Of a DNA stretch of 37,703 nt, positions 16,895 to 37,607 are shown piece by piece. The notes under the pieces are model-generated. The model had not been told where the DNA came from. It did not search any database and saw only the letters and a list, made by a program, of their open reading frames with translations. The stretch covers positions 1-37,703 of the forward strand of contig VHCW01000045.1 in NCBI GenBank assembly GCA_016871575.1, read 5' to 3'. Source of the DNA: Verrucomicrobiota bacterium. GTDB taxonomy: Bacteria > Verrucomicrobiota > Verrucomicrobiia > Palsa-1439. The translations under genes were made by a program, and so were the position numbers. Position 1 is the first letter of the stretch; each line of letters opens with the position of its first letter.

Positions 16895-19336
16895 TCACTG
16901 CGGCTTATGCCAGAATGACTCCCAGTAACGGCAGTCGAGCGCGTAAGGATCGACGGGGGTGTCATCTGAAAAATTTTTGGGCAGGAATCCGTAGAGCTGC
17001 ATTTCGCGGATATAGTGTCGGTTGGGACGGAAGCCCGGCATATCGAAGCGTTTGATCCGGTCGAGATACTCTTTTGTTTTCCCGATGGCAGCGAGCAGAA
17101 CTTGATAGTCGGGGTCCGCCATGTCTTTAAAAACGATGAAGTGGCCATCCTTGCTGTCCTTGTCTGCGGAATCCGCATAGCCCCCGGCGCTCTTTGCCAG
17201 GGGGGCCAGCAGCATCAGAGATTTGTCCGGACGGGTGAGGTTCATCAGAATATTGGGATCGAAACGATATTTACGATCTTGGGTGTTGATGTGAATGCCG
17301 CCCATGGAGAAGGTGTATTGATCAGGCGCAGCCGGGATTGTCCTTTCCTTCCCGTGACATTCGGCACAGCGCCGGAGGGCGTTTTGAGTGGCTGCGCCCC
17401 ATGCGCTTCGGTACTCCCGGTTGCCTGACACATCGGTGGCGCCCACCATCCCGGAGCCAAGCGCCGCATAGGTTCCGGGGTAGGAGGCGCTGGTTTCGAT
17501 CCACAGCCAGATCATCCGCTTTTCATGCTCTGAGAGTCTGACCTTGTGATGCGCGCCGTCAAGCTTCTTGAGTATGGCGCTTGCCGAGGATCCGATGGTG
17601 CGAGGTGCGCGGTTGCCATTCAGGTTCTCTCCATCGGCGAACTGGTTTTTGAGACGCAGCATGTAATAGCTGTGCGAGTAGATCGGGCCGCGATCACCTG
17701 AAAGGATCATGCCTCCTGAACGGGGTCCACCCTTATCTGTTTTGACATAATCATGACATCCCACGCAGTGTTTATCGAAGATCGGCTGAATGTCGCGGGG
17801 GAAATCAATAATAGATGGCGCGCCGGGTAGGGGCTCTATCTTGCTGGCGGGCCTTGTCATCGCCGTAGGCAGTTTGTCGGGGCGGGGGGCTTCACCTCTG
17901 GTTTCATGACAGCCGACGCAGCTCACTTGCTCGCCTGGCTGGAAAGTTGCAAAACTCTGCATGCGTTTCACAGACATCTCATTTTCGTCAAGCGCCACAA
18001 AAAACAGGCTGCGTAGCGCGGGGAGTTCCATGTGCGCCGATCCGTCGGGATCGACCGGAACCGTGCCCAGAGCGCGTGTAAGTGTAAATGTGCCGCCGAA
18101 GGATACGGGCTCCCATCCGCCGGTAAAGTTGACAGGTTTGGGTAAAACTTCGAGGATGAGGAGCTTCTTGATCTCGCCTCGCTCTACGCCTGCCATGTTT
18201 CGTCCGACATAAACATCGGTCAGGAAGACGGAGGCGCTGGCTTTCTTCAGGTCAACTTGCGTCGGGATTATGCGTTCGCGCTTTCTTGCGCGCAGAGGGC
18301 GCGGCTCCTGGGGGCGCATATTCTGTTTGGCCAGCTCTTCGGGGAGCTGGTGGATCTGGAGTGTCCTGCCGGTGGCGTCGACAAGGTAGATGCCGCCCTC
18401 GGAGGCGGCCAGAAAAAGGTCTTCGGCAAGCGGATAGGGATCGCGGTATAATGTTTTCGGATCGGTCACGGCCTTTGCCATGCTCTTGTCGTCGGGACCG
18501 TTGGAGGGGTCGACAATGGTGATGACGCCTTCATGTTCACGCCGGCCGTGTCCGGGCGAGAAGGAGGCGACAACCTTGCGCGTTCCCGGGACGGGTTTGG
18601 CATCGATCATGAGCGTGCCGGGATGCATGTTGCCGTAGTAGACCATCTGGCCGGTGCCGTCGGGATTCATGGTCCACAGGTGATGGAAGCGCACCTGGCT
18701 GCGGTCGATGTACTCCCAGCGCTGGTAGATGACACGGCCGTCCGGCAGCATCCACGGTGTGTTGTCCTGCTCGATGTTGGCCGAGAGCGGTCGCATATTC
18801 CTGCCATCCTTGTCACAGCGGTAGATCACGGCCACGCGGGTGTGCCAGCAGTTGACCATGCGGTTACACCGGCTCGAACAGAAGATGATATTGCCGTCGG
18901 GAAGATAGGCAGGCTCAACATCGTCGAAGGGTCCGTCGGTCAGAGGTCGCAGGCCGGAGCCGTCGATATTGATTTCATGGAGATGATAGAACGGCTGGCC
19001 AGGGGTGCGGTATGAAAAAAGAATTTTCTGCCCGTCATAGTGGACCTGCGGGTCGCGCACTCCGCCCTCCGGCGCGTCCAGAATGGTTTTCAGTTCCCCG
19101 GTTTTGATGTTGAGGCGCACGAGTCTGCCGCCGTCGCTGTAGAGTTTTCTGTCGGGGTTGGAGGACCAGTAACTGAAGTTCGCGTACCAGTGTCCGTCCT
19201 TGCCGTCCTGGCGGGCGGCATAGACGATCTCGTCAAAATCGAGCCCTTTCAGCCGCTGCCTGAGAGGATCGACATCCGCTGCCATGAGGGAGAAGGTCAG
19301 AGCCGTCAGGGAACAGATAATAACTGCGTTAGCCAT
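16895..19336 (-). CDS. Hydrazine-synthase-alpha-like beta-propeller protein with three c-heme motifs
   Basis: 813-aa exported protein with a signal peptide (MANAVIICSLTALTFSLMAA). Residues about 25-330 form TolB/PD40-type propeller blades (DGSGLRPLTDGPFDDVEP, LPDGNIIFCSSRC), followed by a second propeller-like region. Three CXXCH heme motifs follow: CVGCH 473-477, CVGCH 524-528, CAECH 657-661. The layout matches the HzsA-like family common in Planctomycetes and Verrucomicrobia, most members of which do not make hydrazine and are uncharacterised periplasmic redox proteins. No HzsB/C genes are nearby. Codon use and G+C look lower than neighbours and an IS91 remnant lies just upstream, suggesting acquisition. 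A GTTATA (-10 on this strand) sits 6 nt before the ATG. Confidence 0.88.
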   Translation of the reverse strand: MANAVIICSLTALTFSLMAADVDPLRQRLKGLDFDEIVYAARQDGKDGHWYANFSYWSSNPDRKLYSDGGRLVRLNIKTGELKTILDAPEGGVRDPQVHYDGQKILFSYRTPGQPFYHLHEINIDGSGLRPLTDGPFDDVEPAYLPDGNIIFCSSRCNRMVNCWHTRVAVIYRCDKDGRNMRPLSANIEQDNTPWMLPDGRVIYQRWEYIDRSQVRFHHLWTMNPDGTGQMVYYGNMHPGTLMIDAKPVPGTRKVVASFSPGHGRREHEGVITIVDPSNGPDDKSMAKAVTDPKTLYRDPYPLAEDLFLAASEGGIYLVDATGRTLQIHQLPEELAKQNMRPQEPRPLRARKRERIIPTQVDLKKASASVFLTDVYVGRNMAGVERGEIKKLLILEVLPKPVNFTGGWEPVSFGGTFTLTRALGTVPVDPDGSAHMELPALRSLFFVALDENEMSVKRMQSFATFQPGEQVSCVGCHETRGEAPRPDKLPTAMTRPASKIEPLPGAPSIIDFPRDIQPIFDKHCVGCHDYVKTDKGGPRSGGMILSGDRGPIYSHSYYMLRLKNQFADGENLNGNRAPRTIGSSASAILKKLDGAHHKVRLSEHEKRMIWLWIETSASYPGTYAALGSGMVGATDVSGNREYRSAWGAATQNALRRCAECHGKERTIPAAPDQYTFSMGGIHINTQDRKYRFDPNILMNLTRPDKSLMLLAPLAKSAGGYADSADKDSKDGHFIVFKDMADPDYQVLLAAIGKTKEYLDRIKRFDMPGFRPNRHYIREMQLYGFLPKNFSDDTPVDPYALDCRYWESFWHKPQ

Positions 19337-19342
19337 GGTTAG

Positions 19343-19348
19343 GTTATA
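19343..19348 (-). promoter_or_regulatory. Candidate -10 box of the three-heme propeller gene
   Basis: TATAAC on the minus strand ends 6 nt before the ATG at 19336. No convincing -35 is seen at 16-18 bp. It fits the short-leader pattern of the window. Confidence 0.35.
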
Positions 19349-19607
19349 AGACATCAAAAATGTTGGGAAATTGCTTTTCAGAGGCGCTTCGCATCGGCGA
19401 CAGCAGGGGGTTAAGGGGGGAGTCCCGAACCTCTCCTGACCGGCCGAAGCGTCGGCGAGGCTTGCGAACTTCTCCTCTCGTTGCATTTCCGTTCCTTTCG
19501 GGGCGCATCTTGACGGAAGTCCTATTCATTGTCAAACCGGCCTGACGGGAAAGCGCGTGGCTCTCCCATCACCGGTGAGCGGCGGGTTGCCTGAGATCGC
19601 GATTGTT
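19349..19607. other. Non-coding stretch upstream of the three-heme gene
   Basis: About 260 bp with no convincing gene on either strand; the short open frames have no family-like sequence. It contains a G-rich run (ggggttaagggggg, near 19407-19420) and imperfectly repeated CGAAC(C/T)TCTCCT segments. Together with the transposase remnant it forms about 650 bp of decayed DNA, likely the residue of an insertion. Confidence 0.5.
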
Positions 19608-19835
19608 CTACGCGGCGCAGGCATCCGGGCTGAAAGGGAGGTCGTCGTAGAACGGTTCCCAGATGTATTCTGATTCGAGCCGCAGCGGCAGGGCCAAGCC
19701 TTCCCAGAGATCGAGATGGCGGAGAATCTTCTCGATGACCGGAGCGTCCTCAATGAGCGAGATCAGCCGCATCTGGCCGCCGCATTTCGGGCACAGGAGC
19801 GGGTCAACGCCCCACGCTCGCTTGATCAGTTCGCG
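19608..19835 (-). pseudogene. IS91-type transposase C-terminal remnant
   Basis: About 75 codons encode the end of an IS91-family (Y2/HUH) transposase. The recognisable part is RELIKRAWGVDPLLCPKCGG, then QMRLISLIEDAPVIEKILRH and LDLWEGL. The CxxC and the VIEKILRHL segment are hallmarks of the common 3' fragment of these transposases. The catalytic HUH and two-Tyr domains are absent; sequence upstream in the same frame (to about 19990) has no family likeness and runs into the stop of the next gene. It is a dead fragment marking past insertion between the two propeller genes. Confidence 0.75.
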
Positions 19836-19991
19836 CTGAGCTATGGGAGGAGGCGGGCGATTCCCCACACCGGCCATGTCGTGCACAACGCCGAAGAACT
19901 GCGCCGGGTGGTGGAACAACAAGAAGCGGCAGCCCATGCCGTCCGTGAGACTCCGCCCCAGTATGGCAAAGATTGAGTCAGCTTGCCGCTC

Positions 19992-22900
19992 TCATCGCAA
20001 CAAGACACGACGCGTGGAAATGTCCGGGTAATTTGCCGCGAGTTTCCGCATCTCGGTCTGCGCGCCCAACTGCGACAACGCCACGGCCGCGGCGTTTCGC
20101 GTGTCTGGCGCGTTCTGGAAATCGCTGACTGTTTTCAGCAAAACCGGGACACAACGCTTGTCGCCAATCCGCCCCAGCGCCCACGCGGCGCACGCGCGCC
20201 AGCACGGCGTCAGGTCGTTGTGCAGGAACAACACGCCGGGACCGAGCGGATCGGGCGAGCCGTCGGCGAACTCCGTCGGGAATTTCTCCAGCGACGCCAC
20301 CAGCGTGTCCACCGACGCCGGTTGCGCCAGGTAGCCGAGCAGACGGGCGAGATAGAAACAAACCCAATGACGCTCCGGCAAGGCGTCCACGATGGGGATA
20401 CCGGTGGCAAAGACCCGCTTGATGGTGTTTGGTTTCTCGCGGTAACGCTCGTACGCGGCGCGGATGCGCGGCTCGTATTTCGCGTCGCGACAGGCCAGCG
20501 AGATAATCTGCGCCGCGCGAATTTCCGGCGTCGGCTTGCCGCCCCACGCGCCGTGGACTTTGCCGATGGCCGCTTCGATTTCTGCTGTGCGCTTCGCGGA
20601 AGCATCCCCAAGAATCGCCAAGCAGGTCTCGACAACCGCCGCCTCGGCGCCGGCGCGTCGAATCATGCGGCCGGTCAGCATCTCATGGTCGTCGTTCTCC
20701 GGGAACAATCCGCGGTCGAAGTCGGTCGGCACTGATTCGACGAGTTTCGTCACGTTCCCCTTTGTCGAGCCGAGCGCGTCGAGCGCCTCCATGATGAGAT
20801 AATGAACCGGCGATGAGTGGCACGCGATCAATGCGGGATGGTCGCCGTACCAGAGCGAATAGTGCTGGTAGTCGCCCAGTCCGGCAAACGCCTTGTGCAA
20901 CACCGCTTCGGCCTCGGTCGTGCCGATTCGACCGAGCGCCTCGACGGCCGCCTCCGCGAGGAACAGATTCCCGTTGGTCGGGCACGAGTGCCGGCTGATC
21001 GTCTGCGCCAGCAACGAGACTGACGACGCGTCCTGGAGATAACCGAGCGAACGCGTCACCGCCTGAATGGTTCGCGGATTCACGTCCGCCAGCGAGTTGA
21101 AGCGTTTGCCGTCGCCGCGGTGCGTCTTGTGCCATTCCGGGAACGGGTTTGTGTTGTATTCGCGCGCCAGGTAATCCCGGAACGGCGACGGGTCGCCACC
21201 GGAGCGGCTCATGGCAACAGCAGCGCGACGGGCCATGTCGCGGTTGCCGGCGTCGAATGGACGAACGGTGAGGTTCTCGACCGCGATTTTCGCGGCCTCC
21301 GCGACGATGGCGGAATCCCCGGAACACAGGGCCTTCAATGCCGGGACATTCTTCGGCGTTCCGCACGCCGCCAACGCGAAGGCTGCGGCCACGCGCACTT
21401 CCCGTGATTCGTCGCGCAACAATTCTTCCAGCGCCGGCGCGGCGGCCGGGTCGCGGAAGATGGCGAGCCGTTGGGCTGCGGTGATCTTCATCCCTTCGTC
21501 TTTCGATTTCAGCCGGGCGACGAGCGAGGGGACACTTTGTTCGTGACGGTTGATGCCGGCGACTTCGCGAAACCGGTCAAACTGCAACTCCATCAGCCCG
21601 GTGACGGCAGCGTTGTTGCCGCGAAACCGGTGCGGGTCGCCCTTGCCGAGCAATTTCAACGGCGGCTCCCTCAACGCCTGAATGACGCCCCGCGCCGGCA
21701 CGGGCGTCGCTTGACGGGGTTGATGGCAACCGATACAGCCGCGAACTTCTTTCGGGCGAACGTAAATCCATGACATCTCGTTGAGTTCGCTGCGCCCCTC
21801 GGCGTCCACCGCCTGAAATGCAACGGCCATGTCAGCGGGCACTTCGACGGCAAACGAACCGTCCGGCATCAATGGCACGGTGCCAAGTTCGACGACGTCA
21901 GTGCCGGTGTGGACGATGTAGGAGTGCGAGGATCGGTAGTTCAGGCCGCGGCTGCCGATGACACGCATCGCGCGGACGTGTTGCCAGCCGGCGGTCGTGT
22001 TCTTCGTGAAACGGGCGTTCTGGCAAAACAGAATCCCGGTGGCGTTCGGGTCATCCGCGTCCTTGGGCCGTACATTTTGCGGCATGAGCGGCGGACGCTT
22101 TCGGGCGCCCAAAAACACCGGCGAATGCAGCGGTTCTTCCGGCGAATCGAAGATGATGACCGGCGTCGCGTCCTTGCCCTGCGGATCAAGCACGCCGATT
22201 TTCTCGTAGCTGTACTCGGCGACCTCGCGTTTCTGTTTTCTCACCATCTTGATGGACGAAGTCTTGCGCGGCACGGTGCAGAGCAAACGCCCGTCCGGCA
22301 ACGCGGCCACGTCGCCGGCCTCGACGCGGAGGTGTTGGATGTCGCTCTGCGGGCTGCCGAGTTTGCCGACGGCGATGCCGGAGGCGGTCACATACGCGAC
22401 GCGGCCATCGGGCATCGGCGCGGGGCTGCCGCAACTGAACGCGCGGAGCCGCGCTCCGTACTCGGGGCCGAGATCGAGCCCGAATTCGGTGTAGCCGTGC
22501 GTGCCGTCGGGATGGATGGCGTGCAGCAACGTCTCGACCTTGCCGCGGTCAAAAAAGTTGTCGGTGCGAATGAAGAGAATCCGCCCGTCGGCCAGCACTT
22601 CCGGTTCGTTGTCGAAAATGAACGTGTAGGTGAGCGGCCGGATATCGGTGCCGTCGGGTTGCATCGCAAAGAGCGAGCGCGACGGCGGATTGTGGTATTC
22701 CTCGAACGTGCCGATGCGCGTCGAGGTGAACACAATCCGTCCATCGGGCAGTTCGACGGGATCAATGTCGTGAAACGGCCCGCTCGTAAGCCGCTGCGGT
22801 TTTCCTCCTTCGGCAGGGAGACAATAGAGGTGATAGAACGAGCCGCCCTCGGCGACCATCGAGAAGTAAATCCATTTCCCGTCGAACGAGACGCTCGGCG

Positions 22901-23744
22901 AACCGATGGCGCCCTTCCCCGCATCGTAGAGCAACTGCGGTTTCGCGCGCGGTTTGAGCACAAACAACTTCCGGCCAACCTTCATCGGCGCGGGCAGGTC
23001 GTGCTCGGGGAACGCCCGCGAGTTGCGCGGATTGAAGATGGTGACGTTCAGGCTCTGATAACCCTCGCCCGTTTGTCCCCGGTACAGGCTGCAATCGTCG
23101 CCAACGAAAATCACGGCTTCGGGCCACTCAAAAGTGGCGGACGGCGGCACGCCGACTTCCGCGGCAACGGTCTCGCGCGGTCCCGGTTTCTCGGTGCCGG
23201 CGGCCGCGGCGAGTTTGCGCCAGGGCGCGTCGCCGAAATTTGCCACGATGCCGGCGGTTTTCCACGCCTGATCGTTGAAGTCGGGCTGCTGCCAGTTCTT
23301 CTCCTCGTCCAGGCTGAATTTCCACGTCGAATCCGTGACGAGCGCGACTTCCTGGCCGTCCGCCAACTTCACGACCAGTTTCATCAAGAGTCCCGCCGGG
23401 CCGGGAGCAGTGTTGGCGGCCTCGATGGCAATCGTGTTGTCGCCGGCGTTCAGGAGGTTGGCGACGTCAAACTTCTTCGGCTTATTCCACTCGTTCGGGT
23501 TGCGCGAGCTTTCGCCGACGAATTTGCCATTGAGATAGACTTCGTAAAGGTTGTCGGCGGTGACGTGGAGATCGGCGGACTTGATTTGCGCCTGCTCGGT
23601 CACGGCCACACCGGCGCGGAAACAAACCGTGCCCTTCGGCTGCGACTTGTCCGAAGACGACCAGATCCATTTCGCGCCGTCAAACGCGCGCACCGGTCCG
23701 TACGCTGCCGTCAGCCCCAAAAAGAGTATGAAGAATCGTTTCAT
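19992..23744 (-). CDS. Giant exported protein: lectin-like domain, HzsA-like propeller, one c-heme, HEAT repeats
   Basis: 1250 aa with a signal peptide (residues 1-20, MKRFFILFLGLTAAYGPVRA). Residues 21-170 resemble the galactose-binding-like N-terminal domain of bacterial rhamnosidases (KWIWSSSD, VTADNLYEVYLNGKFVG). Residues about 200-640 are an HzsA/TolB-like propeller (YHLYCLPAEGGKPQRLTSGP, ELPDGRIVFTSTR). One CIGCH heme motif lies at 670-674, in the WIYVRPKEVRGCIGCHQPRQ context. From about 720 to the end are HEAT-type helical repeats (DESREVRVAAAFALAACG, ACAAWALGRIG). The start overlaps the upstream stop (ATGA). No enzymatic activity can be assigned; a periplasmic redox or sensing scaffold is inferred. 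Confidence 0.88.
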   Translation of the reverse strand: MKRFFILFLGLTAAYGPVRAFDGAKWIWSSSDKSQPKGTVCFRAGVAVTEQAQIKSADLHVTADNLYEVYLNGKFVGESSRNPNEWNKPKKFDVANLLNAGDNTIAIEAANTAPGPAGLLMKLVVKLADGQEVALVTDSTWKFSLDEEKNWQQPDFNDQAWKTAGIVANFGDAPWRKLAAAAGTEKPGPRETVAAEVGVPPSATFEWPEAVIFVGDDCSLYRGQTGEGYQSLNVTIFNPRNSRAFPEHDLPAPMKVGRKLFVLKPRAKPQLLYDAGKGAIGSPSVSFDGKWIYFSMVAEGGSFYHLYCLPAEGGKPQRLTSGPFHDIDPVELPDGRIVFTSTRIGTFEEYHNPPSRSLFAMQPDGTDIRPLTYTFIFDNEPEVLADGRILFIRTDNFFDRGKVETLLHAIHPDGTHGYTEFGLDLGPEYGARLRAFSCGSPAPMPDGRVAYVTASGIAVGKLGSPQSDIQHLRVEAGDVAALPDGRLLCTVPRKTSSIKMVRKQKREVAEYSYEKIGVLDPQGKDATPVIIFDSPEEPLHSPVFLGARKRPPLMPQNVRPKDADDPNATGILFCQNARFTKNTTAGWQHVRAMRVIGSRGLNYRSSHSYIVHTGTDVVELGTVPLMPDGSFAVEVPADMAVAFQAVDAEGRSELNEMSWIYVRPKEVRGCIGCHQPRQATPVPARGVIQALREPPLKLLGKGDPHRFRGNNAAVTGLMELQFDRFREVAGINRHEQSVPSLVARLKSKDEGMKITAAQRLAIFRDPAAAPALEELLRDESREVRVAAAFALAACGTPKNVPALKALCSGDSAIVAEAAKIAVENLTVRPFDAGNRDMARRAAVAMSRSGGDPSPFRDYLAREYNTNPFPEWHKTHRGDGKRFNSLADVNPRTIQAVTRSLGYLQDASSVSLLAQTISRHSCPTNGNLFLAEAAVEALGRIGTTEAEAVLHKAFAGLGDYQHYSLWYGDHPALIACHSSPVHYLIMEALDALGSTKGNVTKLVESVPTDFDRGLFPENDDHEMLTGRMIRRAGAEAAVVETCLAILGDASAKRTAEIEAAIGKVHGAWGGKPTPEIRAAQIISLACRDAKYEPRIRAAYERYREKPNTIKRVFATGIPIVDALPERHWVCFYLARLLGYLAQPASVDTLVASLEKFPTEFADGSPDPLGPGVLFLHNDLTPCWRACAAWALGRIGDKRCVPVLLKTVSDFQNAPDTRNAAAVALSQLGAQTEMRKLAANYPDISTRRVLLR

Positions 23745-25321
23745 GATTTCAGTTTCTGGTTTTCTGCCAAATCGAAATACGCCAATCGCGTTGGCGACGC
23801 CGTTTGCAGCGTGAACTCTACACGATTCAGACCGTCGCGCAACAACCCCGCCGGCACTGTCCACGCCCGCAGCTCATCGGGTTTTCCAAGCATTGGCGGA
23901 TACGGGTTGGGAAACGGCTCTGACAAATCATTGGTCGGCACGAGTTCGACGCCGTTCAGCCGGGCATGCCAACGACTCTCGCCGAGCGATGACTCGCCTT
24001 GAATGCGCAAGCGTCCCCCACCCTTCTGATGCGGCGCAAGATCAAGCGTGAACACTTCCGTTTCGCCAACAACCATTTTTCGCGGCAAGGGATACTCTTT
24101 CGTGTACGGATGACGCCAGTTGGGCGCGAGAAACCAGTGCTGGGGCTGTCGCGCGAGCCAAGCGCGGTCGCCGAGCCGTTTCAACACCTCGAAGGGCGGT
24201 TCGTTGAACGGGCCGCGCCCCGGCCCGCCGTGCTCGCGGTAATAAACGAAGTTGAACAAGCTGACGCCGTCCGCTCCCTGCTCATAAGCCAAGTGCGCCG
24301 CCGTTTGCATCTGCTCCGCCGTCGCGCGACGAAACGGGAACGAGTCGTAGGCTGTGACTCCCGGCGGTTTTGACCCGTTCCAAATCGAGTGGCACAACTC
24401 CAAATACACTGCCGCATGGGGGACCAGTTTACGGATCGCCGCAAGGTCGGTCTGCTGGACGGTAAAATAACTGGCGGAGAGATTCACCATGTCCAGCCCC
24501 GTCCCGACCATCGCCGGTAAATCAATGCCGAGCGGATCATGTGCAACGAGTTGACACGGCACCCGCGCGCAAAGCCAGCGACGCGGACCGAGCGCCGCGC
24601 GAACGTCACGCACGAAACCAGTCATGATGTCGCGGCGTTGGGCGCTGGTGGTTTTATCGAGTTGGAAGAAACTGTAGAACCGCATGAAATCCATCTCGAA
24701 CCCCTCGAAGTCGTAGTTTTCGCAAAGCTCGCGGATCAACGCGAGCTTGTGGGCGCGGACTTCGGGAACGGCCCAGTTCAGCACGCGCTGTTCCCCTCTC
24801 GTCACATCGGGGCCGAGACGATATTCGGGATGCCCGGCGACGAACCGGCTGATCCAGACCGAGCCAGGTTTTTCGAGATGATGCGCGTCGTTCATGCGAA
24901 GCGAGATGAAAGGCGACCGACCTTTCGCGCGACAGCGATCAATAAACACGCGCACTATGTCGCCGCCGTCGAGAACGTACTTGCCGAACGAATCCGGTTT
25001 GGTGCCGAATTGTTTTTCAACCCACCGATAATGTTCCTCGGCGGGATAGACTTTGCTTTTCCACCACGGAATCCAACCCAGCCCCGGTTGCAACAGGTGC
25101 GCGTCCACACCCGCCGCCTCGTCCACGGTCGCCTCTAACATCTGCGGACGGAACGGTTCGCGCTTCTTGTGCCACGGGCTGACGCAGGAAACGATGTTGG
25201 TCGTGTCGTTGCTGTAGAGAACGCGGAACGGCGGCTTGCGTTGCGCCGCAGACAACGACCGGCAACCGGCGGCAAACAACACCGCGCTGCCAGTGACTTG
25301 AAGAAACTCTCGCCGGTTCAT
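23741..25321 (-). CDS. Tat-exported glycoside-hydrolase-like TIM-barrel protein
   Basis: 526 aa. Tat signal MNRREFLQVTGSAVLFAAGC (twin Arg; the final Cys could be lipidated). The core resembles the planctomycete/verrucomicrobial family-10-like putative glycosidases: VSCVSPWHK, HLLQPGLGWIPWW, SPFISLRMNDAHH, NYDFEGFEMDFMRF and AYEQGADGVSLFNFVYY, with acidic residues in FEMDFMRF as possible catalytic groups. A C-terminal beta-rich region (430-526; RWHARLNGVELVPTND) looks like a carbohydrate-binding module. I chose the ATG at 25321 over 25330 because it overlaps the upstream stop as ATGA. Its stop overlaps the giant propeller gene. Substrate unknown. Confidence 0.82.
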   Translation of the reverse strand: MNRREFLQVTGSAVLFAAGCRSLSAAQRKPPFRVLYSNDTTNIVSCVSPWHKKREPFRPQMLEATVDEAAGVDAHLLQPGLGWIPWWKSKVYPAEEHYRWVEKQFGTKPDSFGKYVLDGGDIVRVFIDRCRAKGRSPFISLRMNDAHHLEKPGSVWISRFVAGHPEYRLGPDVTRGEQRVLNWAVPEVRAHKLALIRELCENYDFEGFEMDFMRFYSFFQLDKTTSAQRRDIMTGFVRDVRAALGPRRWLCARVPCQLVAHDPLGIDLPAMVGTGLDMVNLSASYFTVQQTDLAAIRKLVPHAAVYLELCHSIWNGSKPPGVTAYDSFPFRRATAEQMQTAAHLAYEQGADGVSLFNFVYYREHGGPGRGPFNEPPFEVLKRLGDRAWLARQPQHWFLAPNWRHPYTKEYPLPRKMVVGETEVFTLDLAPHQKGGGRLRIQGESSLGESRWHARLNGVELVPTNDLSEPFPNPYPPMLGKPDELRAWTVPAGLLRDGLNRVEFTLQTASPTRLAYFDLAENQKLKS

Positions 25322-26268
25322 CCGTGCCATGGGCGGGAGCGGTTCTTGATGCCGCCGAGCACTTCCGTCACAATCCGCGCGTCCTCGGCGATCTCGAAAT
25401 CAAACATCCCGGCAAGGATGAAATCAACGCCGTGCTCGTAGGCGTACTGGAACGCGTTGTGCGGCGGAATCGCCCCGGCGGCCATGACCTTGAAACCGAT
25501 CCACGGCTTCGTGACGGGCTTCATGAACTCGGCCGTTTCTTCCGGACAGGAGCACCAGTAGCCGTGTGGCGCTTCGGCGTGCGGCCCCTTGATGTCCTTC
25601 GCTTCCGGCGCGGTGGGATACTTGTGATGATGAAACGTCTTGAAATAAAAATCGCACGAGAGCTTGGCGGCCTCGCACGCCTTGACGACTTCCAGGTCGT
25701 GCGCGCCCACGCCGGTCGGCAAACCGGTCGCCTGCATCATCGCCACGAGCTCGCTCAGGAACGAAAACTGTTTTCTCTTGATCAGCGGGTCGCCGGTCGC
25801 GCCGTGCAGGTAGAACGCATCCGCCCCGGCGTCCACCAGTCGTTGCACGACGACGCTGAACACCTGCGCTTCCCGGCTCTCCTTGGGGTCGGGCGCGATG
25901 ATCCAGTTCATCTTGCCGCCGCGCCTGCGAAAGTCACGGAACAATCGCACGACCGTCTCGTCGTTGTGGGTCATGAATGTGTTGACGCCGCGCGCCTGCG
26001 CCTCCGCAAACGTCGCCATCACCCGCTCCTCGCTGTTGTAGTGGCGAGAGAGATTGCGAACAAAGTTCAGGTCGCGCGCGTGGACGTGGTGCGTGATGAT
26101 GTTGGTGCCGAGCATCAGCCGCGAAACTTCCAGTTTCCCGATTCGCCCCTTCGGCAACGAGGTGGTGGTGGTGGCCGGGGATGTCTGCGCTGTCGTCATG
26201 CCGGCGGCCAGCACGCCTCCTCCTGCGACCTTGAGAAAACTACGACGGGTGTATTCGATGTTGCTCAT
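25318..26268 (-). CDS. Tat-exported aldo/keto-reductase-like TIM-barrel protein
   Basis: 316 aa, Tat signal MSNIEYTRRSFLKVAGGGVLAAG. The beginning of the mature part, KGRIGKLEVSRLMLGTNII, is like aldo/keto reductases, followed by alternating beta/alpha segments (GVNTFMTHNDETV, WIIAPDPKE, GADAFYLHGATGD, GVGAHDLEVVKACEA, PWIGFKVMAAGAI, GVDFILAGMFDFEI). I do not see a clear NADP-binding motif near the C-terminus, so it may be a non-catalytic or differently specific barrel. It is the first gene of the three-gene operon leading to the glycosidase-like and giant propeller proteins. Confidence 0.75.
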   Translation of the reverse strand: MSNIEYTRRSFLKVAGGGVLAAGMTTAQTSPATTTTSLPKGRIGKLEVSRLMLGTNIITHHVHARDLNFVRNLSRHYNSEERVMATFAEAQARGVNTFMTHNDETVVRLFRDFRRRGGKMNWIIAPDPKESREAQVFSVVVQRLVDAGADAFYLHGATGDPLIKRKQFSFLSELVAMMQATGLPTGVGAHDLEVVKACEAAKLSCDFYFKTFHHHKYPTAPEAKDIKGPHAEAPHGYWCSCPEETAEFMKPVTKPWIGFKVMAAGAIPPHNAFQYAYEHGVDFILAGMFDFEIAEDARIVTEVLGGIKNRSRPWHG

Positions 26269-26305: not shown

Positions 26306-26348
26306 GCGGATTCTGTCTCTACACTCTCACACGGGTGCATGGGCAAAG

Positions 26349-26408
26349 AGCCGCCGAGACGGCGGCTACTACACCATTTGCTGGTGTAGTGGCGTCCGTC
26401 CCGGACGC
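26349..26408. repeat. Three consecutive perfect hairpins (REP-like array)
   Basis: Between two divergent genes, 60 bp hold three abutting inverted repeats. AGCCGCCG-AGA-CGGCGGCT is at 26349-26367, ACTACACCA-TTTGC-TGGTGTAGT at 26368-26390, and GCGTCCG-TCC-CGGACGC at 26392-26408. All arms pair perfectly (8, 9 and 7 bp). There is no T-run, so a simple terminator is unlikely. It could be a REP/BIME-type mobile palindrome or a structured RNA. Confidence 0.8.
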
Positions 26409-26463
26409 TCTCTCGCCTTGCACTGCCCAAAGGTTTGAACCGCCCCCTTCTCCCAAGGACAGC

Positions 26464-26500: not shown

Positions 26501-27235
26501 ATGAAAACGTACCGGTTCATTATTGTGGCGATGGCAATGATCATCGTCAGCGGATGCGCAACCTACATTCCGCCCAGCGGTCGCGCTGACTTCTCCGCCT
26601 TTCAAAGCCAATCCATGCAGGAAAGTTTCGCGGCAAAACCCGCCGCCGCCTTCCCTGCGAGCATCGCGGCGGTGCGCATCCAGGCATCGCGTTATCGCAG
26701 CCATTTCACCGAACGCGAAGGCGGCGTCCATGGACGGGGACGCTACTCGGTCATCACGGTCAAGGAAGTGGAGGACGCTGCCGATTTTGAGCGCATTGCC
26801 CGGCTGCCGCAAGTGGGCGGCCTCATCAGCATCAGCACGCTGTTGCTGCCGGAGAACCTGACATCGGACCGCGAGTTGCGCGAATCAGCCGCGCGCCTGA
26901 AAGCCGACATGCTGTTGCTCTACACATTCGACACCTCGTTTCATGAAAATGACGCCTCGGTGGCGCTCAACATCGTGACGCTGGGGCTGTCGCCGACACG
27001 CAGGGTGTTTGTGCGCGTGGCCGCCTCGGCGCTGCTCATGGATACCCGCACGGGATTCATCTACGCCGCGTTCGAGGCCAACGAGAAACGGCAGACCCTC
27101 ACCAACGCCTGGGAATCGCGCCAGAGCGCCGACCGCGCGCGACAGGACGCCGAGAAAGCGGCGTTCAAACAGTTGATCGCGGAGTTCGAGAAGAACTGGC
27201 CCAAGATCGTCGAACGCGCCCACAAGGGAGCCTGA
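26501..27235 (+). CDS. Predicted lipoprotein of unknown function
   Basis: 244 aa. The N-terminus MKTYRFIIVAMAMIIVSGCA is a lipoprotein signal with lipobox VSGC (Cys19). The mature protein has alternating beta/alpha segments (FPASIAAVRIQAS, RLKADMLLLYTFDTSF, FVRVAASALLMDTRTGFIYAAF), and the C-terminal 45 residues form a charged helix. The fold pattern resembles outer-membrane-associated lipoproteins of the LpoB/CsgG type (a conserved beta-alpha core with TGFIYA), but this is only a resemblance. It is followed after 5 bp by the hydrolase gene. Confidence 0.8.
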   Translation: MKTYRFIIVAMAMIIVSGCATYIPPSGRADFSAFQSQSMQESFAAKPAAAFPASIAAVRIQASRYRSHFTEREGGVHGRGRYSVITVKEVEDAADFERIARLPQVGGLISISTLLLPENLTSDRELRESAARLKADMLLLYTFDTSFHENDASVALNIVTLGLSPTRRVFVRVAASALLMDTRTGFIYAAFEANEKRQTLTNAWESRQSADRARQDAEKAAFKQLIAEFEKNWPKIVERAHKGA

Positions 27236-31028: not shown

Positions 31029-31032
<4 letters not shown>

Positions 31033-31910
31033 GACTTGTTCTTCAGCGTCTGGTACAGGTCGAAGGCGTCCTTCGGCTTCTTGTTGTCGTGCACGACGGC
31101 ACGCACGGCCTGAATCATCGCAACGGGGTGCTCGGCTTGGAAGACGTTGCGGCCCATGTCAACGCCCGCGGCGCCCTGGTCAATCGCCTCGTAAGCCATT
31201 TGCAGCGCCTCAAGCTCCGGCAACTTCTTGCCGCCGGCGATGACGATCGGGACGGGACACGCGGCGACGATCTTCTCGAAATCAGGCTTGCAGTGGTAGG
31301 TCTTGATGACGTGCGCGCCGTTCTCGGCGCAGACGCGCGTGGCGAGGCCGAGGTAGCGGGCGTCGCGAACCAATTCCTTGCCGACGGCGGTGACGCCGAG
31401 CGTGGGGATGCCGAAGCGGGCGCCCTCGTCAATCGTTTTGGTCAGCGTGCGAACCGTGTCGGCCTCGAACTTCTTGCAGCCGATGGCGACCATGATGGCG
31501 AGCATCGAGGCGTTGAGGCGGACGGCTTCTTCGATGCTCATCACGCACTCGTCGTTGAGGTCGGTCAACACCGTCGAGCCGGCGGAGTAGCGCAGCGAGA
31601 TCGGCTTGTTGCTGGTCGGCGGCACAATCTGGCGGAGCGCGCCGCGCGTGCACATGATGCAGTCAGCATAGGGGATCAACGGCACAATCGTCAGGTCCAT
31701 CCGCTCCAGCCCGGAGGTCGGCCCCATGATGTAGCCGTGATCGAACGCGAGCATCACCGTGCGACCGCTCTTCGGATTGAAGATCCGGGAGAGCCGGTCC
31801 TTGATGCCCCAGTCCACGTGGGCGTTGCCTTTGAGAAAGTAGCCTTCCGACTTCTGCGGAATGCCAATGCCATAGTCTTTTGCGTCTTGATTGCCTGTTG
31901 CTTCAGCCAT
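31029..31910 (-). CDS. LsrF-like class I aldolase/thiolase (DhnA/DeoC superfamily)
   Basis: 293 aa. Close to LsrF (3-hydroxy-5-phosphonooxypentane-2,4-dione thiolase): WGIKDRLSRIFNPKSGRTVM, LAFDHGYIMGPTSGLER, MCTRGALRQIVPP, the lysine region HVIKTYHCKPDFEKIV, and PVPIVIAGGKKLPE, ending GVDMGRNVFQAEHPVAMIQAV. LsrF transfers acetyl from an AI-2-derived phosphate to CoA; relatives are class I fructose-bisphosphate aldolases using a Schiff-base lysine. A Shine-Dalgarno AAGGAA (31919-31924) lies 8 nt upstream. It is 4 bp after dhaL, not beside lsrK/G/R or Lsr transport genes, so AI-2 breakdown is doubtful. Aldol cleavage or formation with a DhaKL product is likelier. Confidence 0.88.
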
Positions 31911-31914
31911 GATG

Positions 31915-32529
31915 TTATTTCCTTTCGTTGATTGCTTCTGCGAAACCTTGAAACATGAACGCCACCGATGTGGCCCCGGGATCTTGGTGGCCTTTGGTGC
32001 GGTCGCCAAGATTGCGCGCGCGTCCGAACTTCGCGACCATGTCCTTCGTCGCCTCCGCGCCGCGCGTCGCGGCCTCGGCGGCGGCCCGCAACGCGGCTGT
32101 CGGCGAATCACCAGAACACGCAGCCACGGCGGGCAGCAGCGCGTCCATCATCGTCTTGTCGCCGATTTGCGCCTGCGAATGCTCGCGCATCGCTTTCACG
32201 CCGCCTTGAAACGCTGCGGCCAGATCGAGACTGTCTGTGCCAGTGGCTCCCTCGGCCATGCCAGTGAAGAATGAGCCGAGCAACGGCGGCGCGGACCCGC
32301 CGTCCACGCACATCACGTCCCATCCCACCCGGTGTAATAATTCTGCAATGCTACCGGCATCCACGCTCGCAGCAGCAACGGCGGCGTCCATCACTTTGCA
32401 AATCGTTGTGCCGTGATCGCCGTCGCCCGTGGCGGAATCAAGCGTGGAAAGAAGCTTCTCGTTCGCTTGAATCTTCGCCGCCGCAATGCGGATCATCCGC
32501 ACGACATCGTCATAACCAATCGTCTCCAT
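31915..32529 (-). CDS. dhaL: Dihydroxyacetone kinase subunit DhaL-like
   Basis: 204 aa, all-helical nucleotide-binding subunit of the Dha kinase family. Seen: LLSTLDSATGDGDHGTTI (the DxDxH Mg-ADP binding Asp/His cluster, about residues 34-39), DVMCVDGGSAPPLLGSFFTG, KTMMDALLPAV and the C-terminal GRARNLGDRTKGHQDPGA motif. No DhaM (PTS) gene is in the window, so ATP probably comes from exchangeable nucleotide rather than PEP. The start is within the TGATG junction with dhaK (1-bp overlap). Confidence 0.92.
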   Translation of the reverse strand: METIGYDDVVRMIRIAAAKIQANEKLLSTLDSATGDGDHGTTICKVMDAAVAAASVDAGSIAELLHRVGWDVMCVDGGSAPPLLGSFFTGMAEGATGTDSLDLAAAFQGGVKAMREHSQAQIGDKTMMDALLPAVAACSGDSPTAALRAAAEAATRGAEATKDMVAKFGRARNLGDRTKGHQDPGATSVAFMFQGFAEAINERK

Positions 32530-33530
32530 CAGGATTCGCCCCAATACGGCGTGTCGCACGGCGCGTCGAGCAACGCCGCCAACTCGTCATCCACCTTCGC
32601 GACGTGCATCTGGAACCCGGCCATTTCCTGCACGGTGAGATATTCGCCGACGCGCGCGCGCGCGAGCGTGATCCCCTTCTGTTCGAGCACCTGACCGACG
32701 CGCCGCATGATGATGTACTGTTCCATCAATGTCGTCCCGCCGGCGCCGTTGATCATCACGAACACCTTGTCGCCCTTCTTCGCCTTCACGGCTTCGAGCA
32801 ACTGCGTCAACATGATGTCGGTGGTTTCATCAGCGGTCTTCATCTTCGAGCGGCCGGTGCCGGCTTCGCCGTGCTGGCCCATGCCGACTTCCATTTCGTC
32901 GTCGGCGAGATCAAAGATGGACTGGCCGCTGGCCGGATGCGTCGCCGTCTTCAACGCGACCGCGAGCGTTGCCATGTTGTTGTTGTACTTCTCGGCAACG
33001 GCGAACACTTCATCGAGCGACTTCCCCTGCTCCGCCGCCGCGCCGGCGACTTTGTAGAGCGGAATGCAACCGACAAGGCCGCGTTTGTCGGCGGCGGGAA
33101 CATTCGCACCGGGCGCGATGTCCTCGTGCGTCAAAATCATCTTCACATTCAACCCGGCCTTCTTGGCCATCTGCATCGCGATGTTGGAAGCCATCACGTC
33201 GCCTGCGTGGTTGAGCACGACGAACAACACGCCTGCGGGACGATTGGCGAGCTTGAGCGCCTCGAACACCTTCGGCCCCGCTGGCGCGGCGAAGATGTCG
33301 CCGGCGACGCTGATGTCGAGCATTCCCTGCCCCACGAACCCGCTCAGCGCCGGTTCGTGGCCGGTGCCGCCGAGCGTGACGAGTGCGACCTTGTTGGCGT
33401 CCTTGGGCTGGGCGCGACAAACGAGCTTGTCGGAGACGAGCTTGACCTTGTCGGAATACGCGAGGGCGTAGCCTTCGAGCAATTCCTTCGTGAGGTTCTT
33501 GGGGTCGTTGATAAATTTCTTCATCGGCAT
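32529..33530 (-). CDS. dhaK: Dihydroxyacetone kinase subunit DhaK-like
   Basis: 333 aa, substrate-binding subunit. GGTGHEP (54-60, His58), NHAGDV (Asp111) and GMGQHGEAG (His220) match the E. coli DhaK residues His56, Asp109 and the covalent hemiaminal His218 with identical spacing, so binding of a short ketose by a covalent bond to His is expected. The family also includes erythrulose kinases, so substrates other than dihydroxyacetone are possible. I chose the ATG at 33530 because the Shine-Dalgarno AGGAG (33540-33544) lies 9 nt upstream. First gene of the dhaK-dhaL-lsrF-like-S9 operon and divergent from the giant exoprotein gene. Confidence 0.93.
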   Translation of the reverse strand: MPMKKFINDPKNLTKELLEGYALAYSDKVKLVSDKLVCRAQPKDANKVALVTLGGTGHEPALSGFVGQGMLDISVAGDIFAAPAGPKVFEALKLANRPAGVLFVVLNHAGDVMASNIAMQMAKKAGLNVKMILTHEDIAPGANVPAADKRGLVGCIPLYKVAGAAAEQGKSLDEVFAVAEKYNNNMATLAVALKTATHPASGQSIFDLADDEMEVGMGQHGEAGTGRSKMKTADETTDIMLTQLLEAVKAKKGDKVFVMINGAGGTTLMEQYIIMRRVGQVLEQKGITLARARVGEYLTVQEMAGFQMHVAKVDDELAALLDAPCDTPYWGES

Positions 33531-33539
33531 GGGGTGGTT

Positions 33540-33590
33540 CTCCTGTGTTGAAGTGTGCGCGGTTATACCGCCCCACCCCGCAGATGCCAA
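33540..33590 (-). promoter_or_regulatory. Promoter and Shine-Dalgarno of dhaK operon
   Basis: Leftward TTGGCA (33585-33590), 17-bp spacer, TATAAC (33562-33567), then AGGAG at 33540-33544. The predicted leader is about 24 nt. It is back to back with the exoprotein promoter, the two -35 boxes being 9 bp apart. Confidence 0.65.
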
Positions 33591-33599
33591 GCGCGGATT

Positions 33600-33628
33600 T
33601 TGTTACCGGCGCCCTTTGGTGTTATGAT
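33600..33628 (+). promoter_or_regulatory. Promoter of the giant exoprotein gene
   Basis: TTGTTA (33600-33605), 17-bp spacer, TATGAT (33623-33628). The -10 box lies 13 nt before the ATG at 33642, giving a leader of about 6 nt. An in-frame ATG at 33624 falls inside the -10 box, so 33642 is the start. Confidence 0.6.
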
Positions 33629-33641
33629 AGAAGCACCTGCA

Positions 33642-36600
33642 ATGAGTAAAGCCTTGTCGCGCGTTTTCGCCCTTTCCGTCGTGGGCCTGGCTTGCGCTGT
33701 TGACGCCCGTGCCGCCGGCACCGGTCTGACCGGCGAGTATTTCACCACCAACAACTTCACGGGCACAAAAACCACCCGCGTTGATGCGACAGTCAATTTT
33801 AGCTGGGGCGCCGGGGCGCCGGGCATCGGCGGGTTGGCCACCAACAACTTCTCCATCCGCTGGTCGGGACAGGTGGAGCCGCGCCACGATGAGACCTACA
33901 CGTTTTACGTCACGGCCGACGACGGCGCGACACTCTGGGTCAACGACCGCCTGATTGGCTCGCGATGGTACTCGGCGACACCGGCGCAGATGGCAGCTCA
34001 GATTGCACTCAAAGCCGGCCAGCGAGTCAACCTCCGCCTCGAATACATGGAGACGACCGGCAACGCCAGCATCCAACTCGAATGGGCCAGCGCCAGCCAG
34101 CCGCGCGAGGTCATCCCGCAATCGCAACTGTACCCGGCGACGATGCCCGCCGAGCGCGGCACGATTCTGCGGGAACATTGGGAGAACCTGCCGGGCACCG
34201 CCATCAGCGCGTTGACCAGTTCGTCGAATTACCCCCTCAAACCCGATGGACGCGAGATGTTGTTGAGCTTCGAGTGTCTTCAGACGAATTGGGCGGGCAA
34301 CATCGGCACGCGAGTCCGGGGGTATCTCACACCACAGACAAACGGACTTTTCACGTTCGCCGTCGCGGCCAGCGACACGGCGGAATTGTGGTTGAGCACC
34401 GACACGAACGCCGCGAACAAACAACTCATCGCGTCCGTCGCGTCCGCCACCGGTTTTCGCGACTGGTCGAACCAAGTCTCGCAAGTCTCCACCGGTCGCC
34501 CGCTGGTCGCGTGGGAAAAATATTACGTCGAACTGCTCCACAAGGCCGGCTCGAACAATCATCATTATTCCGTCGCATGGAAACCGCCGGGCGCGTCGCC
34601 ATTCCAAGTCATCGGCGCCGACCACCTGGTTCCAGCGCGGCTGAAGGAGGCATTGCCGGAGCAGACGAACATTTTCGACACGCTCGCGCCCTCGCATCCG
34701 CGCCTGTTTGCCACCGCAGAGCGGTTTGCCTGGCTGCGCCAGCAGATCACCGACAATCCGACGGGGCAACCCGCGCAGTGGTACGCCTCGCTTTACCGGA
34801 GCGCCACCAACCTGTTCACGGCTGCGCCGGTAACGTATGTCTTGGATAATCGCGGCACCATTCTCTCGCAAAGCCGGACAGTGGCGAACCGCATGTATCA
34901 ACTTGGGCTGGCGTGGAACATGTCCGGCGACTCCAACTTCGCCGAGCGGGCATGGATCGAGTTGACGGCTGCGGGCAATTTCCCGAACTGGAACCCGTCG
35001 CACTTTCTGGACACCGCCGAAATGACTCATGCCTTCGGTCTCGCTTACGACTGGTTCCACGGATATTGGACGCCTGCTCAACGAACGTTTCTTCTCACCA
35101 ACATCACAACGAAGGGATTGTCGCCCGGGCTATCGGCGTTCAGCAACAACGTCGGTTGGACGCGTTCGACCGCCAACAACTGGAACATGGTCTGCAACGG
35201 CGGCCTCACCGTCGGCGCGCTGGCGGTGGGCACTGATGCGGAAGCGATTGCCGAACAGGTCGTGAGCAAGACAGTCGTTTCGCAAGCGCCCGTGATGCAG
35301 CGATGGACCGCCGACAACGGAGCATGGTTTGAAGGCCCCGGCTATTGGGATTACACCAGCGATTACAATTTCCGGATGCTGGCCGCCTTGCAGTCGGCGC
35401 TCGGCTCGGATTTCGGCCTCAGCGCCACGGAAGGACTCAACAACGCCGGGCTGTTCGCGATGCTGCTGACCAGCGCAAACCGCCGGAACTTCAATTTCGC
35501 CGACGCCAGCATGGGCGCTTCCAGCGGCCCGCAAATGACCTGGTGGGCGCGCCGTTTCAACGTGCCGGCGTATGCTTGTCACGAACGCACGAACAACATC
35601 GCGGACGTGCTTGGCCTGCTGTGGTGGGACCCGCGCGGCAGCGATCCAGCCAGCGAAGGCATCGGCGCCGATCTGCTGTTTCTCGGACCGACCGGCGCCA
35701 CGCCGTTCAAGTCGCAGCATGTCGGCGTCTTCCGCTCGTCTTGGGGCGACAACAACGAAACGATGCTCGCGTTCAAGGGCGGCGAAATGGGCGCTGCGCA
35801 CGGCAATCTCGACGCCGGCACATTCGTCCTCGAAGCGCTCGGCAAACGCTGGGCGTGGGACCTCGGCGCCGACGACTACTCGCTGCCCGGCTATTTCAAC
35901 TCAAGCCCCACCGCCCCGATCAACCGCTGGCAGTATTACCGAATGCGCGGCGAAGGCCAGAACACCATCATCATCAATCCCGGCGCCGGGCCGGATCTGA
36001 AGTATGGCGCGGTGGCGCCGGTGTGGCTCTTCCAAAGCAAGGAAAACGCCCGTGCCATGTCCATCGTGGACCTGACACCGGTGGCGACCAATGTCACGCG
36101 CCTCTGGCGCGGATTCCAGTTGTTCGGCCCGCAACGCAAACAAGCCCTGGTGCAGGACGAAATCGAGGGCGCGAGCAGCGCCGATGCCTGGTGGTTCCTG
36201 CACTACCGGAGCGACCTCACCGACCTGACCATTTCGTCCGATGGCGCCAGCGCGACGATGACGCAGGGCGACCACCGGCTCTGGGCGAGAATCCTCAGCA
36301 GCAACGGCACGTTTCAAATCATGGACGCGCGACCGTTGCCGACATCTCCTGATCCCGACGGGCAAAACCTGAACAAAACGCACCGAAAACTCGCCATTCA
36401 TCTCACTGCCGTCACCAACACGACCATCGCCGTCTGGTTCGTGCCGCTTGCGCCCGGTCAGAATCCCCCCATCGTGCCGCCGGCCATCACGCCACTGTCG
36501 CAATGGCACATTCCCGAAAACGACCCGCCGCTGGCGCTCGACGGCTACGTCACCACGCCGCAAAACACCGCCGCGGACGTGGACCTTTGGACGCTGGCCA

Positions 36601-37607
36601 GCGACACCGCCACGCCAACAATCAACCTCGCGTTCAACGTGAGCAGTGCGACCAACGGCGCCGTCGTGTTGTTGGCCGACGGCCACACGGCGCGATTCAC
36701 TCCCGCCGCAAATTTTCACGGCACCGGCCTGTTCCTCTACTCGGTCACCGATGCGGGAAACAACACGGCCACCGCCGGCGTTTCGGTTACCGTTCTGCCT
36801 GCGACGTGGTATTGGGACGGCTCGGCCGCCGCCGGGCTGCAACCCACCAACGGCAACTGGGACAGCACAACGCCGACTTGGTCGTCCACGCCTTCCGGCA
36901 CAGGCTCGCTTCTGGCTTGGCCGCCGCTTGGCAACGACGCCGCCTTCATCGGCGCCGGCGGCGCGTACAGCATCACCGTCATCGCTACACAACAAGTCAA
37001 TCATCTCCTCACCACCAACGGCACATGGACGTTCACCGGCGGCGTGTTGCACCACGCAAAAGGAACGATGACCCTCACCATTGCGGCCAACACAACCATC
37101 AACACTCCGATTCTGGCCGACACCGGATTAATCAAGGACGGCCCGGCCACGCTCACGCTTGGCGCGACCAACGTTTACAGCGGCGTCACCGCCATCAACG
37201 CCGGCACCCTCACCATCACCGCTGACAACGCGCTGCCCATCACCACCGACCTTCTCATCGGCAACACCAACCACACGGTTGGACATCTCAACCTCAGCAA
37301 CTGCAACCAGACCGTTGCCAGCCTCCATTGCCAATCGCTCAGCGCCGCAACTAACACAGTGAAGATTGCGCCCGGCAAAACACTCACCGTCACCAACGCC
37401 GCCACCGGCATCGCCTGCGGCGTCGGCAACTACGGCAGCAGCATCGGCAACCTCGCCGCGACAACCCGCGTCTGGTTCGCCGGCGGCGGAAATCTGGAAG
37501 TGAACGCCCCGCGCGGCGCGTTCTCCATCGAGCCGTGCGGCACCAACAGCGGCGTGGCGCTCCTCGATCTATCTAGCCCATTTGTTTCACCGTACGAAAG
37601 GTTGTGA
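33642..37607 (+). CDS. Giant exported PA14/heparinase II-III-like/autotransporter-repeat protein, 3' end interrupted
   Basis: 1321 aa to the present stop. Signal peptide 1-25 (VVGLACAVDARAAG). PA14 domain 1 is at about 28-165 (ETYTFYVTADDGATLWVNDR) and a second PA14-like domain at about 175-335. A heparinase II/III-type alpha-toroid runs from about 345 to 640 (PSHPRLFATAERFAWLR, NNWNMVCNGG), and its beta domain from about 650 to 950 includes KGGEMGAAHGNLDAGTF near 712. A cadherin-like beta module is at about 966-1050, and autotransporter-associated beta-strand repeats from about 1052 (GTLTITADNAL). After VALLDLS the sequence abruptly changes to SPFVSPYERL-stop, without the usual repeats or C-terminal sorting signal, so the original 3' end seems cut by inserted DNA. 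Polysaccharide lyase activity on a uronate polymer is inference. Confidence 0.85.
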   Translation: MSKALSRVFALSVVGLACAVDARAAGTGLTGEYFTTNNFTGTKTTRVDATVNFSWGAGAPGIGGLATNNFSIRWSGQVEPRHDETYTFYVTADDGATLWVNDRLIGSRWYSATPAQMAAQIALKAGQRVNLRLEYMETTGNASIQLEWASASQPREVIPQSQLYPATMPAERGTILREHWENLPGTAISALTSSSNYPLKPDGREMLLSFECLQTNWAGNIGTRVRGYLTPQTNGLFTFAVAASDTAELWLSTDTNAANKQLIASVASATGFRDWSNQVSQVSTGRPLVAWEKYYVELLHKAGSNNHHYSVAWKPPGASPFQVIGADHLVPARLKEALPEQTNIFDTLAPSHPRLFATAERFAWLRQQITDNPTGQPAQWYASLYRSATNLFTAAPVTYVLDNRGTILSQSRTVANRMYQLGLAWNMSGDSNFAERAWIELTAAGNFPNWNPSHFLDTAEMTHAFGLAYDWFHGYWTPAQRTFLLTNITTKGLSPGLSAFSNNVGWTRSTANNWNMVCNGGLTVGALAVGTDAEAIAEQVVSKTVVSQAPVMQRWTADNGAWFEGPGYWDYTSDYNFRMLAALQSALGSDFGLSATEGLNNAGLFAMLLTSANRRNFNFADASMGASSGPQMTWWARRFNVPAYACHERTNNIADVLGLLWWDPRGSDPASEGIGADLLFLGPTGATPFKSQHVGVFRSSWGDNNETMLAFKGGEMGAAHGNLDAGTFVLEALGKRWAWDLGADDYSLPGYFNSSPTAPINRWQYYRMRGEGQNTIIINPGAGPDLKYGAVAPVWLFQSKENARAMSIVDLTPVATNVTRLWRGFQLFGPQRKQALVQDEIEGASSADAWWFLHYRSDLTDLTISSDGASATMTQGDHRLWARILSSNGTFQIMDARPLPTSPDPDGQNLNKTHRKLAIHLTAVTNTTIAVWFVPLAPGQNPPIVPPAITPLSQWHIPENDPPLALDGYVTTPQNTAADVDLWTLASDTATPTINLAFNVSSATNGAVVLLADGHTARFTPAANFHGTGLFLYSVTDAGNNTATAGVSVTVLPATWYWDGSAAAGLQPTNGNWDSTTPTWSSTPSGTGSLLAWPPLGNDAAFIGAGGAYSITVIATQQVNHLLTTNGTWTFTGGVLHHAKGTMTLTIAANTTINTPILADTGLIKDGPATLTLGATNVYSGVTAINAGTLTITADNALPITTDLLIGNTNHTVGHLNLSNCNQTVASLHCQSLSAATNTVKIAPGKTLTVTNAATGIACGVGNYGSSIGNLAATTRVWFAGGGNLEVNAPRGAFSIEPCGTNSGVALLDLSSPFVSPYERL

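Follow-up and report, generated by a model that had tools for sequence, protein, structure and literature searches.

Are three overlapping genes for exported proteins in a Verrucomicrobiota genome the parts of one conserved machine, or a local arrangement of genes that also exist apart, and what do their products do? The genes lie in a 37,703-nucleotide stretch of contig VHCW01000045.1 (GenBank assembly GCA_016871575.1), the whole of which we call the window. An earlier note on this DNA had proposed an extracytoplasmic oxidative glycan-processing complex, possibly of an undescribed kind. With moderate confidence, we instead read the locus as an operon specific to this lineage and probably assembled by horizontal transfer, which links the expression of a GH156-like glycosidase to that of a glycan-binding cytochrome resembling the alpha subunit of hydrazine synthase (HzsA).

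Gene arrangement and export signals

All three genes are on the minus strand, at the positions given in the earlier note: gene A (25318..26268) encodes a 316-aa Tat-exported TIM barrel with an aldo-keto-reductase fold; gene B (23741..25321) a 526-aa protein with a Tat-type N terminus, a GH156-related TIM barrel, and a C-terminal beta domain; and gene C (19992..23744) a 1,250-aa protein with a Sec leader, a jelly roll, a PD40 propeller, an HZS_alpha domain, and HEAT repeats. The B stop and C start share a clean ATGA at 23741..23744 (ATG, 23744-23742; TGA, 23743-23741). The A/B junction is an ATGA (25318..25321) only when B is read from its second Met, internal to the longest open reading frame (ATG, 25321-25319; MNRREFLQVTG...); the longest frame starts at 25330 and overlaps A by 13 bp. 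We prefer the internal start because the protein then begins on a twin-arginine motif, as do most of its closest orthologs, (M)MNRRQFL.... From the overlaps we infer translational coupling; the fixed proportion of products that had been claimed does not follow from 4-bp overlaps.

Export signals are found in all three proteins, as had been noted. A matches the Tat signal model TIGR01409 (18.2 bits versus a cut-off of 16.7), C has an ordinary Sec-type leader, and B has the Tat-type start MNRREFL; the Pfam Tat model has no match in B itself and matches 5 of 10 members of its family.

A divergent gene begins at 26501, leaving a 232-bp gap to A, and a scan for promoters and terminators gave signal at background. 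Within the presumed promoter region of A lies a roughly 100-bp interspersed repeat (26330-26440), of which this genome has more than 20 copies, mostly at 80 to 96% identity. Downstream of C and on the same strand, gene D (16895..19354, about 819 aa) encodes a second HZS_alpha protein, with three CXXCH motifs; its open reading frame (16895-19486) lies 506 bp from that of C. The first 44 residues of this frame (19354-19486) match other short genomic copies (56 to 86%), and D therefore probably starts near 19354, its apparent leader being a second interspersed repeat. The interval from C to D holds an open frame of 109 aa (19608-19937, minus strand) that contains GVDPLLCPKCGGQMRLISLIED; it has no Pfam match and resembles a transposase remnant. 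Elsewhere in the window, genes for a DeoC/LacD-type aldolase and a Dak1 dihydroxyacetone-kinase domain lie close together (31029-33590, minus strand), upstream of a giant PA14/heparinase-like/autotransporter-repeat gene (33555-37607, plus strand).

Gene B is related to GH156 sialidases

Single-protein Pfam and NCBIfam searches returned nothing useful for B. Compared with the structure of the GH156 exosialidase EnvSia156 (6rzd), B gave an E value of 2.4e-27 as a single sequence and its family profile one of 2.7e-59 (chain residues 24-490). Judged from these alignments, B is homologous to the GH156 inverting sialidases, which bears out its earlier description as glycosidase-like. The match to EnvSia156 (PDB 6RZD, 6S00; PMC6811678) covers most of the length of B, including the C-terminal domain, but the sequences are distant and B differs in its Tat-type start. 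In EnvSia156, His134 is the acid catalyst and Arg129, Arg202, and Asn346 form the carboxylate-binding triad (PMC6811678); these correspond to His147, Arg142, Arg214, and Asn357 of B, all four of which are invariant among 14 homologs. The general base of EnvSia156, Asp14, falls outside the alignment. A candidate for that role in B is Asp39, located just after strand 1; it does not vary among close family members and is replaced by Glu in divergent ones. Trp164 of the EnvSia156 aglycone pocket is Gly in B and is retained as Trp in several close orthologs.

Gene C encodes a relative of hydrazine synthase alpha

The giant protein had been described as a lectin-type domain, a propeller, a single c-type heme, and HEAT repeats. 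Pfam matches and the motif count agree with that order, but the identity of the heme domain had been missed: it is of the HZS_alpha type. C contains Bac_rhamnosid_N (residues 53-144), a PD40 propeller, HZS_alpha (PF18582; residues 619-675, 60.1 bits versus a cut-off of 26.6), and a HEAT region of about 500 aa from around residue 738 to the C terminus. HZS_alpha encloses the one CXXCH in the 1,250 aa of C (C670-H674), which lines up with the CXXCH of heme alpha-I in hydrazine synthase (5c2v). A model of the C core (residues 18-735) has HzsA (5c2v) as its best PDB match (E = 5e-16), with TolB at 9e-8; its confidence is low (mean pLDDT, 53), so the heme pocket cannot be read from it. The N-terminal domain is a jelly roll closest to a Pleurotus lectin and to rhamnosidases. 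The rhamnosidase match is limited to this domain, the GH78 six-hairpin catalytic domain being absent from C; a full GH78 enzyme is encoded by a separate gene beside C orthologs in another family (f4).

C thus shares with HzsA (PDB 5C2V) and with HZS_alpha homologs (PMC12758564) the propeller and a middle HZS_alpha domain that carries the CXXCH of heme alpha-I; unlike HzsA, it adds a lectin-like domain and HEAT repeats. An equivalent of the heme ligand Tyr591 was not found near the heme in C or its orthologs (QPRQATPVPARG follows His674), and the second heme, alpha-II, is absent from the protein. Since both are missing, we regard C as a relative of HzsA and not as a hydrazine synthase. Genes for the beta-gamma subunit are likewise absent among the annotated genes of the window. 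Many HZS_alpha homologs have been reported outside anammox bacteria, none with a confirmed function (PMC12758564), and our search of the literature on HzsA in Verrucomicrobia returned anammox work only. The same general idea has already been described for planctomycete-type (PSCyt) cytochromes: He and colleagues (PMC5615132) reported Verrucomicrobia cytochrome c proteins with carbohydrate-binding modules, including Bac_rhamnosid_N, near sulfatases, and suggested a role in carbohydrate metabolism. In contrast to those proteins, C has an HZS_alpha heme domain and no match to PSCyt or PSD Pfam domains.

This genome holds 29 HZS_alpha domains, so that here the heme-plus-propeller arrangement belongs to an expanded family and is no isolated case; most f4 genomes hold 13 to 35. 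That abundance, together with the placement of C in a hydrazine-synthase-related family, is what might be expected if C and other HZS_alpha proteins served nitrogen or general periplasmic electron transfer, with sugar-enzyme neighbors reflecting no more than the abundance of both families. One genome (G356) also places the C ortholog before a propeller/MauG-type/cytochrome c protein that resembles HZS beta-gamma homologs (PMC12758564). We nevertheless consider this explanation improbable: C has a sugar-binding-type N-terminal domain and recurring carbohydrate-related neighbors, and the single heme and lack of a Tyr591 equivalent make hydrazine chemistry unlikely (PMC12758564).

Gene A has an aldo-keto-reductase fold without the catalytic residues

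Apart from the Tat signal, single-protein Pfam and NCBIfam searches assigned A to no sequence family; seven homologous matches occur in this genome, A among them. Its AlphaFold model (pLDDT, 83.5) has an aldo-keto-reductase (AKR) fold, as do all 50 entries listed in a structure comparison (Z = 21.4 and rmsd 2.7 over 228 residues for 4exa). A resembles PA4992 (4EXA) and L-galactose dehydrogenases in fold (Z = 20 to 21, about 230 residues) but differs from them in sequence (13 to 17% identity), in its Tat-dependent export, and in lacking the catalytic Asp, Tyr, and Lys. Of the Asp-Tyr-Lys-His tetrad, a weak profile alignment places Met at Asp, no Tyr, and Ala or Pro at Lys, while His155 of A is not invariant in the family. 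With these residues missing, NAD(P)H-dependent reduction of the ordinary kind is unlikely. Weak profile matches to N-acetylneuraminate lyase/DHDPS (E = 0.02 to 0.1) had suggested an aldolase, an assignment that we dropped given the uniformly AKR-fold entries in the structure comparison. Two lysine positions on strands 6 and 7 of the barrel, Lys210 (invariant in the family) and a Lys260-type position (nearly invariant), do follow a pattern known from class I aldolases, whereas the fold comparison points to AKRs. A, an exported AKR-fold protein devoid of the AKR catalytic set, may act by binding or isomerizing a sugar.

The three genes are not found together in other genomes

A scan of 84,980 species yielded 79 B-family loci with flanks of up to 10 kb, and neither tblastn nor a six-frame profile search found an A homolog or a C ortholog in the vicinity of any of the 79; at 52, the flank was long enough on both sides to show A or C. 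The conserved co-occurrence of the three families that a neighborhood search might have revealed is therefore lacking, and at this sampling the trio is known from this genome only, the outcome that the earlier note had named as refuting its proposal. Among the 93 related genomes that we compared, close orthologs are found in f4 (67 to 74% identity for B, 60 to 62% for C), and those f4 genomes that hold all three carry the A, B, and C homologs far apart or on different contigs. No B match or C ortholog was found in 10 relatives from the window's own family (f1), one congener included. This absence, combined with the high identity to f4 proteins, suggests on sequence grounds that B and C were acquired horizontally from relatives of f4.

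C orthologs were found in 10 other genomes of the 384 sampled from the class, with neighbors that differ from genome to genome. They adjoin a GH78 rhamnosidase in four genomes; in f4, they adjoin GH78 and other HzsA-like or esterase genes; and in one genome (G243) the neighbor is a microcompartment-like cluster. In locus L192 (6378-16016), a C ortholog adjoins an apparent bacterial microcompartment cluster, read by eye from translations, with shell-type proteins and acetate-kinase-like and aldehyde-dehydrogenase-like genes. The link to sugars made in the earlier note thus holds for C, through its sugar-binding-type domain and the frequent company of GH78, esterase, and microcompartment-type genes; it does not extend to a three-family system. 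Orthologs of D elsewhere (about 50 to 58% identity) sit apart from C orthologs, and we rejected C-D as a conserved unit; in two genomes (G028 and G052) the HzsA-like neighbor of C is not an ortholog of D but another paralog. Some B genes neighbor a canonical AKR (cluster 7), whose homology to A is too weak for it to be counted as an A homolog.

GH156-like and HZS_alpha genes as neighbors

Of 48 B-family genes in nine genomes, 10 have an HZS_alpha domain no more than 5 kb away, versus 2.0 expected (Poisson, 5e-5), all pairs being on the same strand. Restricting the count to one genome per genus weakens the association (p = 0.004 to 0.5), several pairs being the same locus in sister species, and the crowding of both families into glycan-degradation islands may explain it. 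A homologs showed no enrichment near HZS_alpha genes (4 of 49, versus 2.0 expected), and in the same neighborhood count the window is the only place where A and B homologs lie no more than 5 kb apart. Locus L073 (5048-10917) has an HzsA-like three-heme gene between two GH156-like genes on the same strand, with the second junction overlapping.

Parallel layouts exist. In three genomes of genus g10, an A homolog is located upstream of a gene for an HzsA-like protein. At L095, the only one of these loci read from end to end, the two are separated by a gene for an exported sugar-isomerase-like TIM barrel, and the HzsA-like protein bears a LamG lectin domain. In locus L107 (650-6085), a B ortholog follows, after a 3-bp gap, a gene whose giant product fuses domains of five kinds: 3-keto-disaccharide hydrolase, GDSL lipase, DUF7133, HEAT, and cytochrome c. 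These layouts fit a loose glycan-redox theme and not a fixed complex. Along with the coupling of genes for an exported glycosidase-like protein and an exported sugar-binding heme protein, they nonetheless count in favor of the dedicated oxidative glycan-processing complex first proposed for A, B, and C. We think such a complex unlikely in view of the 79 B-family loci without A or C, the dispersal of the three genes in f4, and the changing partners of C. A conserved A-B-C system is not supported; as the trio was found in no other genome, it looks like expanding families combined locally rather than the parts of a conserved machine. An assembly artefact might be suspected in a draft of 257 contigs with an arrangement seen nowhere else, but we give it almost no credence, because both junctions are 4-bp start-stop overlaps with frames intact on either side, which a chimeric join would be very unlikely to produce.

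A probable lineage-specific glycosidase-cytochrome operon

In the lineage-specific operon that we favor, A, B, and C would be translationally coupled, their genes having been recruited in this lineage from three Verrucomicrobial families that expand separately. B is most likely an exo-glycosidase of the GH156 type, inverting and His-catalyzed, judging by its conserved active-site residues; we infer that it would remove the end sugar of a polysaccharide, either a sialic-acid-like 2-keto-3-deoxy sugar acid or a different carboxylated sugar. C is most likely a periplasmic or surface HzsA-like cytochrome, with a putative glycan-binding jelly roll and a HEAT solenoid as putative docking scaffold. 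Its single heme, the equivalent of heme alpha-I, could donate or receive electrons as either the released sugar or the polymer is oxidized or reduced. A would be an exported barrel that binds or converts sugar.

The operon, now more precisely identified, is a lineage-specific grouping of families that are known or partly known, and its giant protein is re-identified from a lectin-propeller-heme protein to a relative of hydrazine synthase alpha. A broader and tentative possibility, to which we give rather low probability, is that the HzsA-like cytochromes of Verrucomicrobia amount to a large and so far undescribed set of tools for the redox processing of glycans in the periplasm, in which paralogs with their own sugar-binding modules are co-transcribed with a matching exported TIM-barrel protein or glycosidase. 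If so, the trio would be one swap-in instance, with a GH156-like partner here and an isomerase-like or GH78 partner elsewhere. The locus offers a testable link between GH156-like glycosidases and HZS_alpha cytochromes, two expanded families in polysaccharide-degrading Verrucomicrobia.
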